Source: an uncultured Clostridia bacterium
GTDB lineage: Bacteria > Bacillota_A > Clostridia > Christensenellales > Aristaeellaceae
Assembly (NCBI GenBank): GCA_945871545.1
Contig: CAMBWJ010000088.1
Location: forward strand, 1 to 7,121
DNA: 7,121 bases
Direction of reading: 5' to 3'
The position numbers were made by a program, and so were the translations under genes. Numbering within the stretch: position 1 is the first letter of the stretch; each line of letters begins with the position of its first letter. Of the stretch, positions 469 to 7,121 are shown one piece after another. Under the pieces are notes generated by a model. It made no database searches. It saw only the letters and a program-made list of their open reading frames with translations, and was not told the origin of the DNA.

Positions 469-1410
469 ATGGAATTTCATCACGTCTCGGTTCTGTTAAG
501 CGAGTGCCTGGAGGGGCTGAACATCCGCCCGGACGGCACGTATCTGGACTGCACGCTGGGCGGCGCGGGCCACTCCAGTGAGATCTTCAAGCGGCTGGAC
601 GGCGGCAGGCTGATCGGCATCGACCGGGATGCGGACGCCATCGCAGCGGCCACGCAGCGCATGTCCAGCCTGAACCCGAGGGCGCAGTTCCATGCCGTTC
701 GCGGCAACTTTCACGATGCGAAGGCGCTGCTTGCCGGGCTGGGCGTGACCCGGCTGGACGGCGTGCTGGCCGACCTGGGCGTATCCAGCCACCAGCTGGA
801 CGTGCGGGAGCGCGGCTTCTCCTACCACGACGACGCGCCGCTGGACATGCGCATGGATCAGAGCCAGCGCCTGTCTGCCCGGGAGATCGTGAACGAATGG
901 AGCGAGGACGAGCTGAACCGCATCCTGCGGGACTACGGCGAGGAGAAGTGGGCGCGGCAGATCGCAAGGGTGATCTGCGACCGCCGCAAGCAGGCCCCCA
1001 TCGAGACCACCAGCCAGCTGGTGTCCATCATCGACGCGGCCATCCCCAAGAAGTTCCGCGCCAAGGACGGCTCCCATCCGGCCCGCAGATCCTTTCAGGC
1101 ATTGCGCATCGCTGTCAACGACGAGCTGGATCCGCTGGAACCCGCCATCCGCGACCTGGTCGATCTTCTCAATCCCGGCGGACGCATCTGCATCATCACC
1201 TTCCATTCCCTGGAGGATCGGATCGTCAAAAACACTTTCCGCAGCCTGAACGACCCCTGCACCTGCCCGAAGAGCCTGCCGGTGTGCGTGTGCGGCAAAA
1301 AGCCGGTGGTGAAGCTCGTCACCCGCAAGCCCATCACCGCTACATCCGAGGAGCTGGAGGTCAACCCCCGCTCCCGCAGCGCCAGCCTACGCATCGCCGA
1401 AAAGCTGTGA
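469..1410 (+). CDS. rsmH: 16S rRNA (cytosine1402-N4)-methyltransferase RsmH
   Basis: RsmH (MraW) transfers a methyl group from SAM to N4 of C1402 in 16S rRNA, in the P-site part of the decoding centre. At 313 aa it has the usual family length and all signature blocks: HVSVLL at the N-terminus, the SAM loop DCTLGGAGHS (27-36), GIDRDADAI (50-58), ADLGVSSHQLD (101-111), DAPLDMRMD (122-130), FQALRIAVNDEL (209-220), FHSLEDRIVK (245-254), the cysteine-rich CTCPKSLPVCVCG (264-276) and NPRSRSASLR (299-308). The start at 469 has GGAGGG at 459-464. The gene lies outside the cell-division (dcw) cluster where rsmH is normally found: no mraZ, ftsL or penicillin-binding protein gene is adjacent. Instead it heads an operon containing its C1402 partner rsmI. 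It could be the only copy or a second copy in this genome. Confidence 0.96.
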   Translation: MEFHHVSVLLSECLEGLNIRPDGTYLDCTLGGAGHSSEIFKRLDGGRLIGIDRDADAIAAATQRMSSLNPRAQFHAVRGNFHDAKALLAGLGVTRLDGVLADLGVSSHQLDVRERGFSYHDDAPLDMRMDQSQRLSAREIVNEWSEDELNRILRDYGEEKWARQIARVICDRRKQAPIETTSQLVSIIDAAIPKKFRAKDGSHPARRSFQALRIAVNDELDPLEPAIRDLVDLLNPGGRICIITFHSLEDRIVKNTFRSLNDPCTCPKSLPVCVCGKKPVVKLVTRKPITATSEELEVNPRSRSASLRIAEKL

Positions 1411-1440
1411 CCCACCCTCTGAACTGCAAAGCGAGGTCTT

Positions 1441-2529
1441 ATGAAGCATCTTGACACCCCCAGCGGACGGATTCCGCTGCCGGCCTTCTTCCCGGACGCC
1501 ACCTACGGCGCGATTCGCGCAGGCTCCTTCGACGACGTGTACGCCGCCGGCCTCTACGGCTGCGAGATGAACAGCTACCACCTGATGACCAAGCCCGGCG
1601 CGAAGCTCATCAAGTCGCTGGGCGGGCTGCACGGCTTCACCGGCTACAAGGGCGCGGTTCTCACCGACTCCGGCGGCTTTCAGCTCTATTCCCTGATCCG
1701 GGAGAACAGCGATTACGGCGAGATTCGCGACAAGGAAATCATCTTCCGTCCCGACCGGGGAAAGGAGAAGCTCAGCTTCACCCCGGAGAAGTGCATCCAG
1801 GTGCAGTTCCAGTACGGCTCGGACATCATGATGGCGCTGGACATGTGCACCCACCCCGACGATCCCTTAGAGGTACAGAAACGCAGCGTGGAGCTGACCG
1901 TCAAGTGGGGCGCGCGCTGCCGCGAGGAGTTCGACAAGCTGGCGAAGCAGTCGAAGTCCGAAAGGAAGCCGCTGCTGCTGGGCATCGTGCAGGGCGGCAG
2001 CGACCCTGAGCTGCGCATGGAGTGCGGGCGGCGGCTGGAGGAGATCGGCTTCGACGGCTACGGCTTCGGCGGCTGGCCGCTGGACGCAAACGGCTCGTTC
2101 CGTCCCGACATCCTGAAGATGGCCGCGGATGCGATGCCGGACAATAAAATCAAGTACGCCATGGGTCTGGGCCGCCCGGAGGAGATCGTGCAGTGCGTGG
2201 AGATGGGCTATTCCCTGTTTGACTGCGTGATTCCCACCCGCGAGGCGCGCCACCAGCGGCTCTACGTGTTCGCCGACGGCTGCGCCACCCCCGACGGCGT
2301 GCGCCGCAGCGACGGCAGATTCTACAAATTCCACTATATTCTGGACGACAGGCACGCCCGCGACGGACGAAGCGTGGACGAGAGCTGCGACTGCGAGCTC
2401 TGCCGCAACCACTCCCGGGCATACCTGCACCACCTGTTCAAGATGGGCGATCCCAGCGCCATGCGCCTGGCCACCGCCCACAACCTGCGCTTCTACGGAA
2501 GGCTGATGGAGCTGCTGCGCGATGAATGA
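1441..2529 (+). CDS. tgt: tRNA-guanine transglycosylase, divergent (TGT family)
   Basis: TGT family enzymes swap guanine-34 in the anticodon of Asp/Asn/His/Tyr tRNAs for a 7-deazaguanine (preQ1 in most bacteria). This 362-aa protein keeps the catalytic core: DSGGFQ (76-81), an aspartate in MALDMC (D134), GIVQGG (181-186), FDCVIPTR with the likely nucleophile D261, and the zinc site C316, C318, C321 and H347. It is clearly divergent. The usual GGL-[AS]-VGE substrate loop reads GGWPLDA (210-216), NARNG after PTR is EARHQ, and the N-terminus is short. An in-frame stop at 1420-1422 means the start cannot move far upstream; the ribosome binding site (CGAGG, 1432-1436) is modest. It lies 30 bp after rsmH, and its last 8 nt overlap the next gene. 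Altered base specificity, for example queuine or another deazapurine, is possible. A DNA-modifying DpdA-type role seems unlikely in this translation-gene setting. Confidence 0.85.
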   Translation: MKHLDTPSGRIPLPAFFPDATYGAIRAGSFDDVYAAGLYGCEMNSYHLMTKPGAKLIKSLGGLHGFTGYKGAVLTDSGGFQLYSLIRENSDYGEIRDKEIIFRPDRGKEKLSFTPEKCIQVQFQYGSDIMMALDMCTHPDDPLEVQKRSVELTVKWGARCREEFDKLAKQSKSERKPLLLGIVQGGSDPELRMECGRRLEEIGFDGYGFGGWPLDANGSFRPDILKMAADAMPDNKIKYAMGLGRPEEIVQCVEMGYSLFDCVIPTREARHQRLYVFADGCATPDGVRRSDGRFYKFHYILDDRHARDGRSVDESCDCELCRNHSRAYLHHLFKMGDPSAMRLATAHNLRFYGRLMELLRDE

Positions 2530-3316
2530 TCCGATGCTGGAAAAGCTGCTGCATTCGAAGAACTACCAGTGCGTGTGCCCGGACGCCGTGCGCCGCATCT
2601 ACGCCGAATGCTGTCAGAAGTATAAGAAGCCCAGGGACGCGGAGAAGGCCGCCCGCGAACAGCTGCACGGCCTGACCGGCGCGTTTCTGACGAGGGATGA
2701 ATCCGCCGCCTGCATGAAGGACATGCAGCTCTGGGCGACAAGCGCCCGCATGGACGCCGATCTGGAGCGCGCGCTGACCCGCCATGCCTCCACCCGGGAG
2801 CGCCTGCCGCTTGCGCGCATGGACGGGATGTATGCGCACATCTTCGAGGTCACAGGCACACCGTCATCTGTACTCGATCTGGCTTGCGGGCTGAATCCGC
2901 TGTATCTGGGCGCGCGGGGCATCTCCTGCACGGGCGTGGACGTGTCCGGCGAGGCGGTGAAGGACGTCAACGCCTGCGCGTCGAACTACGACCTGCCCAT
3001 CCGCGCCGTCTGTGCCGACCTGCTGTGCGAAAATGCGGTTCCGAAGGAGCGCTATGACCTTGCGCTGCTGTTCAAAATCCTGCCGCTGCTGGAGCGCCAG
3101 AAAAGCGGCGCTGCGCTGGATGTGATGCGCGCTGTGAACGCAAAATACCTGGCTGTCTCCTTCCCCACCCGCACGCTGGGTGGGCGCAACGTGGGCATGG
3201 AGGGCAACTACTCCGCCTGGATGGAGGGCCACCTGCCCGAGAACCGGCGCATCGCCGCGCGCTTCACGGAGGAAAACGAGCTGTTCTATCTATTGGAGGA
3301 GATGCACAATGCCTAA
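2522..3316 (+). CDS. 16S rRNA (guanine1405-N7)-methyltransferase, Rmt/ArmA family
   Basis: This 264-aa protein matches the aminoglycoside-resistance methyltransferase family (RmtA-H, ArmA, Sgm, FmrO) along its whole length. Those enzymes put N7-methyl on G1405 of 16S rRNA in the 30S A site and block 4,6-disubstituted deoxystreptamine drugs such as gentamicin and amikacin. Recognisable blocks are SKNYQCVCPDAVRRI (12-26), HASTRERL (88-95), the SAM loop VLDLACGLNPL (117-127), LLFKILPLLERQ (162-173) and SFPTRTLGGR (193-202) followed by GMEGNYSAWMEG (205-216). K165, R197 and R202 fall where the family has its functionally essential lysine and arginines. The start at 2522 overlaps the tgt stop by 8 nt with TGGAG at 2507-2511, and its end overlaps rsmI by 8 nt, so translation is likely coupled. 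Base composition matches its neighbours and no mobile element flanks it. Family membership is confident; the exact target base and any resistance phenotype are inferred. Confidence 0.9.
   Translation: MNDPMLEKLLHSKNYQCVCPDAVRRIYAECCQKYKKPRDAEKAAREQLHGLTGAFLTRDESAACMKDMQLWATSARMDADLERALTRHASTRERLPLARMDGMYAHIFEVTGTPSSVLDLACGLNPLYLGARGISCTGVDVSGEAVKDVNACASNYDLPIRAVCADLLCENAVPKERYDLALLFKILPLLERQKSGAALDVMRAVNAKYLAVSFPTRTLGGRNVGMEGNYSAWMEGHLPENRRIAARFTEENELFYLLEEMHNA
3295..3301 (+). promoter_or_regulatory. Ribosome binding site that fixes the rsmI start
   Basis: GGAGGAG ends 7 nt before the ATG at 3309, inside the last codons of the Rmt-family gene. It selects 3309 over an upstream in-frame ATG at 3180, whose extra 43 residues are unlike any RsmI N-terminus. 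Confidence 0.85.
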
Positions 3317-4169
3317 GCTCTTCGTCGTCGCCACGCCCATCGGCAACCTGAACGATCTCACGCCGCGCATGCGGGAGGCCATCGAAAATGCCGACCTCAT
3401 CGCCGCCGAGGACACCCGGGTGACGATGAAGCTGCTGAACCACTGGGACGTGAAAAAGATACTGATCTCCTGCCACCGCCACAACGAGGAGGACAAGGCC
3501 CCGCAGATCGTGGAGCGCATGCTTGCGGAGGATCTGACCGTGGCGCTGACCTGCGACGCGGGCACGCCGGGCATCTCCGACCCCGGTCACCTGCTGGTGC
3601 GCGCGTGCTGGGAGGCCGGAATCCCCGTGGAACCGGTCAGCGGGCCGTCGGCGGTGGTCACGGCGCTGTCGGCCTCGGGCTTCGACGCGCGGGAGTTCGC
3701 CTTTTACGGCTTCCTGCCGCGGGAGAAGAAGTTCCTGCGGGAGAAGCTGGAGGCGATCCGCCGCGCGGGCGTGCCGGTGTGCGTGCTGTACGAGTCCCCC
3801 CACCGCGTCTGCGAGCTGGTGAAGCAGATTGCGGAGGACTGGGCGGGCTGCATGCTCTGCGTGTGCTCCGATCTGACCAAGAAGTTCGAGCGCGTCTATC
3901 GCGGCGAAGCAAGGCAGGTTCTTGAAATGCTTGAAGGCAATCCCAGCGTGGAGAAGGGCGAGTACTGCATCGTCTGCGATCTCTCGCCGCTGCCGCCGCT
4001 GGAGGAAAAAAAGCCGCCGCTGGACGCGACGGTTGTGATGCTGGCGGCGATCCTGAACGACGATTGCTCCATCGCGGAGGCCGCGCAGGCCGCCCTCGAC
4101 GCGGGCTGTCCCCGCAACGAGGTCTACCGGGCCAAGCTGCGGATTCAGGAGATGTTTGAAGAAGAATAG
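3309..4169 (+). CDS. rsmI: 16S rRNA (cytidine1402-2'-O)-methyltransferase RsmI
   Basis: RsmI (YraL) methylates the ribose 2'-OH of C1402 in 16S rRNA, the same nucleotide whose base is modified by RsmH. The 286-aa product has the standard tetrapyrrole-methylase-type fold signatures: VATPIGNLNDLTPR (7-20), AAEDTR (32-37), DAGTPGISDPG (83-93), SGPSAVVTALSASG (111-124), FYGFLP (132-137), ESPHR (162-166), LTKKFERVYRG (189-199) and KGEYCIV (216-222), plus the short C-terminal helical domain. Length is typical. The start is set by the GGAGGAG at 3295-3301 and overlaps the preceding methyltransferase gene by 8 nt (3309-3316). It is the last gene of the operon; a terminator follows about 95 nt downstream. 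Confidence 0.96.
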   Translation: MPKLFVVATPIGNLNDLTPRMREAIENADLIAAEDTRVTMKLLNHWDVKKILISCHRHNEEDKAPQIVERMLAEDLTVALTCDAGTPGISDPGHLLVRACWEAGIPVEPVSGPSAVVTALSASGFDAREFAFYGFLPREKKFLREKLEAIRRAGVPVCVLYESPHRVCELVKQIAEDWAGCMLCVCSDLTKKFERVYRGEARQVLEMLEGNPSVEKGEYCIVCDLSPLPPLEEKKPPLDATVVMLAAILNDDCSIAEAAQAALDAGCPRNEVYRAKLRIQEMFEEE

Positions 4170-6625: not shown

Positions 6626-6631
6626 GAAAGG

Positions 6632-6851
6632 GCTGAGAAGGAAAGCAGTAGGCGCGCACAGGCCTGAAGAGAATTGCCGGTCGCTGCGAGGCAATGACCG
6701 AACGCGCTGAACTCGTTCCGGAGCATCCCGCCTGAAAGGGTGGGCGGCCGCCACCGTTACCGGTATCAAGCGGATCTGATAGGATCAATAAGAGTGGTAC
6801 CGCGAAAGGCTTGCCTTCCGTCTCTTTACGAGGACGGAGGTTTTTTCTTTT
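6632..6851 (+). ncRNA. T-box leader sensing uncharged tRNA-Leu (specifier CUC)
   Basis: The leader reads tRNA-Leu charging and stops or allows leuS transcription. Stem I shows AGTA (6647-6650), a helix GGCGCG (6651-6656) with CGCGCT (6703-6708), the distal AGAGA bulge (6667-6671), ATTGCC (6673-6678) pairing with GGCAAT (6690-6695), and a basal helix GGAA/TTCC (6640-6643 with 6716-6719). The specifier loop GAACTC places the codon CTC (Leu) at 6712-6714, matching tRNA-Leu with anticodon GAG. The T-box motif AGAGTGGTACCGCG is at 6791-6804, with TGGT (6795-6798) able to pair with an ACCA acceptor end; leucine tRNAs carry A73. The terminator stem CCTTCCGTC (6814-6822) with GACGGAGG (6833-6840), with one unpaired T, is followed by TTTTTTCTTTTT. 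Confidence 0.95.
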
Positions 6852-6891: not shown

Positions 6892-7121
6892 ATGAAGAAC
6901 ATTCCCGTCTACAATCCCGCACAGATCGAGGGCAAGTGGCAGCTGCACTGGGAGAACAACCACTCCTTCGCCGCCGAGAAGTCCCACGAAAAGCCGAAGT
7001 TCTATCCGCTGATCGAGTTCCCCTACCCCTCCGGCGCGGGCCTGCACGTGGGCCATCCGCGCTCCAACACGGCCATGGACATCATCGCCCGCAAGCGCCG
7101 CATGGAGGGCTACAACGTGCT
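6892..7121 (+). CDS. leuS: Leucyl-tRNA synthetase, N-terminal part (cut by window end)
   Basis: LeuRS attaches leucine to its tRNAs. The 76 complete codons present contain the class I N-terminal block [15 protein letters not shown] (42-56) with the HIGH-type signature HVGHP (52-56), followed by [16 protein letters not shown]. This reading matches the Bacillus/Clostridia type of LeuRS rather than the enterobacterial type. AAAGGAG (6874-6880) lies 11 nt before the ATG, and the gene follows the leucine T-box terminator by about 40 nt. The editing and anticodon domains lie beyond the window. Confidence 0.95.

Follow-up and report, generated by a model that had tools for sequence, protein, structure and literature searches.

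The window analyzed here, 7,121 nucleotides (nt) of contig CAMBWJ010000088.1 from an uncultured Clostridia bacterium of the family Aristaeellaceae, carries an rmt gene (positions 2522-3316, + strand) whose product is a predicted 16S rRNA m7G1405 methyltransferase of the Rmt/FmrO type. Most aminoglycosides in clinical use are ineffective against bacteria that carry mobile rmt genes. Matches to the window Rmt were found in 69 of 300 genomes of the bacterial family, the gene is paired with a paralog of tRNA-guanine transglycosylase (Tgt), here called Tgt2, and some plasmids carry flanks of the same gene cluster. It is therefore quite probable that Tgt2 and Rmt form a native module, with a working enzyme directed at the host ribosome, and that several mobile rmt genes were mobilized from this lineage. 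The window is thus informative: in it, a resistance gene of clinical importance occurs in native, chromosomal form next to an unexplained Tgt paralog.

The rmt product has 264 residues and an ATG start. It passed the cut-offs of Pfam FmrO (7.5e-39, 134.1 bits, cut-off 27) and of the NCBIfam Rmt equivalog NF000466 (5.2e-84, 281.6 bits, cut-off 250), in agreement with a sequence-only reading of the window that had assigned this open reading frame (ORF) to the Rmt/ArmA type. RmtD was the nearest allele model, with a score of 276.5 bits, under that model's cut-off of 500. This score and a chromosome-type gene order, as in loci L001, L071, L110, and others, indicate that the gene is not an acquired or mobile RmtD allele. 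Solved structures matched by the protein include 6pi9 and 3frh/3b89, named from their sequences as RmtF1 and RmtB through identity to plasmid rmt genes, the structure of Sgm (4.6e-31), and three further chains of G1405 methyltransferases that we take to be RmtC. Twenty-three columns are invariant across eight plasmid proteins (RmtB1, B2, C, D1, E2, F1, G, and ArmA), and the window Rmt kept 21 of them. Since the family cut-offs were passed, the structures matched, and these columns were kept, the enzyme likely methylates G1405, and by sequence it appears to be an ordinary member of the Rmt/FmrO family. In the two exceptional columns, residue 38 is R where the plasmid proteins have K, and residue 202 is M in place of L. 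These deviations could point to a modified Rmt relative that acts on a different target, as could the scores of the matching family genomes, which lie over the equivalog cut-off in 41 of the 300 genomes and under it in 28 of the 69. This explanation is improbable, as the window protein itself scores over the cut-off with 21 columns intact, and both deviant columns vary among the chromosomal relatives (K in 71% and L in 46% of 68 rows).

It had been claimed that known members of the family are either mobile resistance genes or self-protection genes of producers. This view had to be abandoned because a protein search with the window Rmt returned 1435 relatives at E <= 1e-3, and the few named entries among the 120 relatives listed include a Clostridia bacterium (P0074 and P0210) and an uncultured bacterium (P0174). 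The nearest named record was a Clostridia bacterium contig (L001), which is 95% identical. All three genomes of the nearest genus had an Rmt match, and strong matches were found in 11 of 396 genomes of the order and in the 69 of 300 of the family (E <= 1e-15). A handful of the 69 matching genes are fragmentary, among them those in G783, G788, G814, G825, and G832. At the level of the class, 97 of 391 genomes matched at E <= 1e-3, yet only 4 did so at E <= 1e-25; the remainder, with scores of 17-29 bits, resemble generic methyltransferases. Exact helix-44 matches for G1405 of the host 16S rRNA were found in just 6 of 60 genomes, with an rmt-like gene only in G852 and G349 (distant FmrO).

Pairwise Rmt distances tracked those of the housekeeping protein RsmH (r = 0.92) and those of Tgt2 (r = 0.93) to a similar degree. 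This comparison used 45 of 71 rmt loci, after L088, L096, and loci lacking any of the three full-length proteins were dropped. Distances in step with RsmH fit vertical descent. The ratio of nonsynonymous to synonymous substitution rates between the window and L001, the sole pair compared, was 0.158 for rmt, 0.088 for tgt2, and 0.089 for rsmI. The window rmt is not an isolated capture; it is an inherited chromosomal gene of a Clostridia family.

The native chromosomal setting that had been proposed from the sequence was borne out by a gene order common to many loci of the family. Tgt2 lay immediately 5' of rmt in 66 of the 71 loci, rsmI lay 3' of it in 54, and all four genes (rsmH, tgt2, rmt, and rsmI) were present in order in 43. 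The five loci without Tgt2 upstream were L108, where the contig ends, L117, L122, and L124 (from G797, G803, and G824), where Tgt2 is present on another contig, and L137, which encodes a distant FmrO protein (24%). Among the 66 adjoining pairs, tgt2 and rmt overlapped by 8 nt in 27 and by 4, 11, or 14 nt in 23; another 15 had gaps of 2-303 nt, a spacing that depends on the choice of start, and L088 has a broken frame. Neighbors were searched at seven loci without downstream rsmI (L113, L120, L127, L128, L130, L132, and L135), and these varied, with genes for sugar metabolism, a transporter, and phosphoglucose isomerase as examples. At L120, rsmH was still upstream although rsmI was not downstream. 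Because tgt2 and rmt adjoin in 66 of 71 loci and are kept together at varied sites, they represent the most constant unit. In L136, a class-level relative, rsmI was again directly 3' of rmt, and the link of rsmI to the pair either is old or arose more than once.

Next to the rmt-bearing loci, the rsmH-rsmI pair itself was considered as an insertion site. One rsmH match each was found in 48 of 50 relatives and none in the other 2, and rsmI was found in 49 of 50, with one match each save for a second, weaker match in G806. Extra copies of rsmH or rsmI were therefore rejected as a candidate explanation. Thirteen of these genomes are rmt-negative: rsmH and rsmI are adjacent in nine (gap at most ~115 nt) and apart in two (G779 and G420), while two (G864 and G785) could not be decided. 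The two genes are likewise adjacent in G787 and G816, which carry the tgt2-rmt pair elsewhere. The simplest reading is that, within the family, tgt2-rmt entered the rsmH-rsmI pair and was then inherited.

The sequence-only reading had placed rmt in a housekeeping operon. For rsmH and rsmI this holds, but since the tgt gene (1441-2529, +) is a paralog that accompanies rmt, the operon is only half housekeeping. The window Tgt2 scored 288.2 bits against the Tgt equivalog TIGR00430, below its cut-off of 306.75, and hence was not classed as a canonical Tgt; the Tgt2 associated with plasmid rmtB2 does pass (317.7 bits). The tgt gene was also rejected as the housekeeping copy by its distribution: any Tgt was found in 279 of 308 family genomes, and the window type (E < 1e-110) in 67, all of them rmt-positive. 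Rmt was searched in 300 of these 308 genomes. Only two rmt-positive genomes were without Tgt2; in one of them rmt is a fragment, and in the other it lies where the contig ends (Fisher p 4e-66 for co-occurrence, with kinship ignored). At least two Tgt matches were present in 61 of the 67 Tgt2 genomes; in most cases the second one is a canonical Tgt (36-41% identity among the matches listed), and some are split pieces of Tgt2. In a Tgt tree, from which Tgt2 sequences of <= 300 residues and L096 (broken tgt frame) were left out, Tgt2 formed its own clade against 12 canonical Tgts with support of 100/100.

The base pocket of Tgt2 is also distinct. It reads GGWPLDA in the window, where the GGWP motif (residues 210-213) is encoded at 2068-2079 (+), whereas the canonical preQ1 pocket is GGLxVGE and all 12 canonical Tgts have GGLSVGE there. 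GGWP was found in 69 of 70 Tgt2 sequences, three plasmid copies among the 70, and the rmtE2-associated copy has GGFP. An alignment with solved Tgt structures places this difference at the base pocket. The window Tgt2 keeps DSGGFQ, DMC, GIVQG, FDCV, and CDCELC...H and so retains the aligned catalytic aspartates, the GIVQG glutamine, and the zinc-ligand motif of canonical and queuine Tgts; the roles of these base pocket, catalytic, and zinc positions are those we assume for Tgts in general. The pocket fits neither the preQ1 motif GGLAVG of Escherichia coli Tgt nor the queuine motif GG[LS][AS]G, as both are given in PMC11570991. These results reveal a Tgt subfamily with a pocket unlike those of the preQ1 and queuine enzymes. 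Gain or loss of the queuosine pathway was considered as an explanation for Tgt2 and rejected. QueA was present in 49 of 50 family genomes, rmt-positive and rmt-negative alike, and QueC in 1 of 50 (G943), which suggests that the family appears to salvage, and not make, 7-deazaguanine precursors; Tgt2 is no marker of that difference.

The clearest link to mobile genes was found on the rmtG plasmid pKP13f. It carries a complete rsmH (81% protein identity to the window), a complete Tgt2 (81%), rmtG (48%), and an rsmI piece that encodes the N-terminal 79 residues (85%), and it aligns with window positions 469-3545 in one colinear alignment of 3095 columns with 72.5% DNA identity. Its tgt2 and rmtG share 8 nt, just like tgt2 and rmt of the window, and an IS91-like transposase is encoded downstream. 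The rmtD1 plasmid (L139) has the last 31 residues of rsmH, a complete Tgt2 (81.5%), and rmtD1, whose identity to the window Rmt as RmtD is 53.7%. Tgt2 adjoins rmtD in both plasmid records and rmtG in eight of nine, directly upstream as in the window. Unlike these copies, which sit amid IS26 and, for rmtG, also an IS91-like element, the window gene has chromosomal neighbors and a complete rsmI. On L139, IS26, tgt2, and rmtD1 are present twice in unchanged order. Identity to the window Rmt is lower for RmtB, RmtF, RmtE, RmtC, and ArmA (~44, 45, 31, 28.5, and 27%, respectively), and in the records compared for this group Tgt2 was only found beside rmtB2 and rmtE2. Two plasmids of one Providencia strain carry Tgt2 (66%), and in the one examined rmtB2 is two genes downstream, with a phosphoesterase gene between. 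The rmtE2 plasmid has a truncated Tgt2 (52%) that overlaps rmtE2, and an annotated Tgt lay under the match in 4 of 11 rmtE records. On plasmids, rmtD1 and rmtE2 each have a 4-nt overlap at the 3' end with a small ORF (L139:6726-7109 and L142:7558-7875), and neither ORF has a Pfam match.

The placement of the mobile proteins was consistent with this link. In an Rmt tree that took in 27 of 245 homologous proteins and dropped L138 (<= 200 residues), RmtB, RmtD, RmtF, and RmtG fell inside a chromosomal group of 91 rows with branch support of 97/95, and RmtE fell beside the chromosomal L135 (100/98). In the Tgt tree, the rmtG-plasmid Tgt2 grouped with G790 and G818 (100/97), two of the three nearest-genus genomes, which belong to the same genus as the genome of L001. 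These positions and the cluster flanks on plasmids uphold the earlier suggestion of a reservoir near the source of mobile rmt genes, for which such a tree had been proposed as a check. Some plasmids therefore hold their own evidence of origin, and the retained flanks turn the question of source into a directed search in one Clostridia family.

The opposite direction, a recent capture of a mobile rmt into a Clostridia chromosome, could be imagined given how common mobile rmt is on plasmids (1591 plasmid records with an Rmt match). It was already disfavored and is very improbable: the mobile genes are nested in broader chromosomal diversity in the Rmt tree, plasmids hold truncated pieces of a longer chromosomal cluster, and the overlaps and composition of the window gene match its neighbors. 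Both overlaps described from the sequence were exact, since tgt2 ends at 2529 and rsmI starts at 3309, giving 8 nt at 2522-2529 (+), where translational coupling is probable, and 8 nt at 3309-3316 (+). The GC content of rmt (63.4%) is likewise close to that of tgt2 (64.1%) and rsmI (65.3%), and the reported lack of a transposon was confirmed in that no transposase was found in a Pfam search of seven window ORFs.

Several observations weigh against a native module as the source of mobile rmt genes. Its spread is patchy, with 231 of 300 family genomes lacking a match, although the assemblies are partly incomplete. Most plasmid rmt records are without Tgt2, with ~15 Tgt2-type records among those listed against the 1591 records, and no Tgt2 was found within 5 kb in single records of rmtF1, rmtB1, rmtC, and armA; the plasmid comparison covered rmtB through rmtG and armA. 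In the Rmt tree, the long branches of RmtC and ArmA are uncertainly placed. The trees disagree on rmtB, since RmtB is in the family clade (97/95) and the rmtB2 Tgt2 groups weakly with an outer group (83/95). The closest relatives of known context have only ~56% identity to RmtD1 and ~52% to RmtG, and proteins at 94-98% to RmtD or RmtG (P0122, P0188, and P0194) lack a known context and could stem from plasmids; thus, no donor species was identified. Likewise, no chromosomal RmtD donor with more than 63% identity to the RmtD-like P0185 was found in 308 family genomes. Finally, m7G1405, host resistance, and the role of Tgt2 are predictions made from sequence.

With these points considered, a native Tgt2-Rmt module remains the reading we prefer. 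As the second gene of this inherited two-gene module, set between rsmH and rsmI, rmt would encode a methyltransferase for the host's own 30S ribosomal subunit, with N7 of the helix-44 base G1405 as its target. RsmH and RsmI act on C1402 of 16S rRNA, according to PMC12406665, where ArmA is also reported to block RsmI. Their target lies three bases from G1405, and the three helix-44 methyltransferases and the Tgt paralog, whose arrangement was observed, are probably expressed from one coupled transcript. The m7G1405 mark would protect host ribosomes from 4,6-disubstituted deoxystreptamine aminoglycosides and may tune the decoding site. Locus segments from this clade and its neighbors are the probable origin of mobile rmtD, rmtG, and rmtB, and those of a more distant branch the probable origin of mobile rmtE. 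Tgt2 adjacency on plasmids is observed; the direction of transfer and the vehicle, perhaps IS91/ISCR-type elements, are inferred. If so, m7G1405, which is regarded as a mark of acquired resistance, is predicted to be a normal modification in some bacteria.

Another possible explanation, which we consider rather doubtful, is that the module is primarily an old resistance trait against aminoglycosides in the habitat, with Tgt2 as a passenger or as an offset to the cost of m7G1405. The patchy distribution and the nearby GNAT acetyltransferase gene would suit such a trait, as would the kanamycin minimum inhibitory concentration of >1,024 mg/L, with fitness and fidelity costs, reported in PMC12406665 for cloned RmtA-D, ArmA, and Sgm in E. 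coli. Since these cloned enzymes work in E. coli and several mobile rmt loci are without Tgt2, resistance at mobile loci seems not to depend on Tgt2. Aminoglycoside uptake is poor in anaerobes, which would make selection weak; in addition, Rmt is inherited in step with RsmH, and no dedicated resistance family apart from rmt was found among the seven window ORFs searched in Pfam. Producer self-protection was not indicated either, as the other six ORFs encode RsmH, Tgt, RsmI, GNAT, ROK, and SecG proteins and no antibiotic biosynthesis family was found among the window ORFs searched. Sgm and the producer enzymes share the family match and presumably the predicted target base, but the partner genes in the window encode RNA-modification enzymes instead.

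The pair could also shield the decoding apparatus, with Tgt2 acting on anticodons and Rmt on the A site to block RNA-cutting ribotoxins or phage enzymes; toxins that act at these sites exist. Both predicted targets lie within the decoding center, and the pair stays together at varied sites, with both genes retained on separate contigs in G797, G803, and G824. This is unlikely, however, because no clear toxin or nuclease family was found in 20 ORFs of flanking genes and plasmid neighbors (PADLOC was not searched). One ABC-transporter ATPase of L135 also matches AAA_21, described as a putative AbiEii toxin. In its widest form, the module proposal is only tentative, and we hold it a little short of an even chance: Tgt2 and Rmt would be an undescribed decoding-center module in which the GGWP Tgt2 inserts neither preQ1 nor queuine but a different base, or has another RNA as its substrate, functionally coupled to resident m7G1405. 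Mobile rmtB, rmtD, rmtE, rmtG, and probably rmtF would then be several separate escapes, and m7G1405 would be normal in part of the Clostridia family.

A plasmid operon of rmtG with rsmH, tgt, and 'rsmL' is described in the review PMC9311965, which cites Passarelli-Araujo et al. 2019, and a tRNA ribosyltransferase 5' of rmtG was noted in PMC3904158. In the portions available, these accounts concern the plasmid copy; a chromosomal source and a Tgt paralog go unmentioned there. No publication naming a chromosomal Clostridia source of rmt or the Tgt2 paralog was found in a search that missed many subscription papers, and no word beginning with 'rmt' occurs in the main text of one paper on recent resistance-gene origins and one on wastewater emergence. 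An unannotated Rmt-like stretch with 31.9% identity lies on an E. coli plasmid (L147:5001-5723, CP095684.1). Two 7.6-kb 'Acinetobacter phage' records (CAKLQH020000068.1 and CAKLQF020000043.1) encode an FmrO protein of 27.4% identity, equal to that of ArmA, and these may be misassigned plasmid contigs.

The remaining features of the window are as follows. The rsmH (mraW) gene at 469-1410 (+) encodes the housekeeping 16S rRNA C1402 N4-methyltransferase (Pfam Methyltransf_5, 8.9e-123), and rsmI at 3309-4169 (+) the housekeeping C1402 2'-O-methyltransferase (TIGR00096, 204.3 bits, cut-off 167.9). The GNAT gene and then the ROK gene follow 3' of rsmI on the - strand, and after them come secG (all three from Pfam) and the 5' part of leuS, named from sequence, starting at 6892. 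A T-box leader (6626-6828, +, 119 bits) lies immediately 5' of leuS, and another T-box was found in L071. A preQ1 riboswitch or other known leader 5' of rsmH was rejected, as the downstream T-box was the sole Rfam match in the window. The region 5' of rsmH contains an GGGTCCAGGGGCAGAGCCCCTGG-type element in two tandem 28-nt copies (387-442), a 35-nt direct repeat (207-241/285-319), and a hairpin at 126-158 with 15-nt arms that are 93% complementary, possibly a terminator preceding the operon. In L071, the edge of a raiA RNA (L071:1-128) lies immediately 5' of the rsmH-tgt2-rmt-rsmI cluster.

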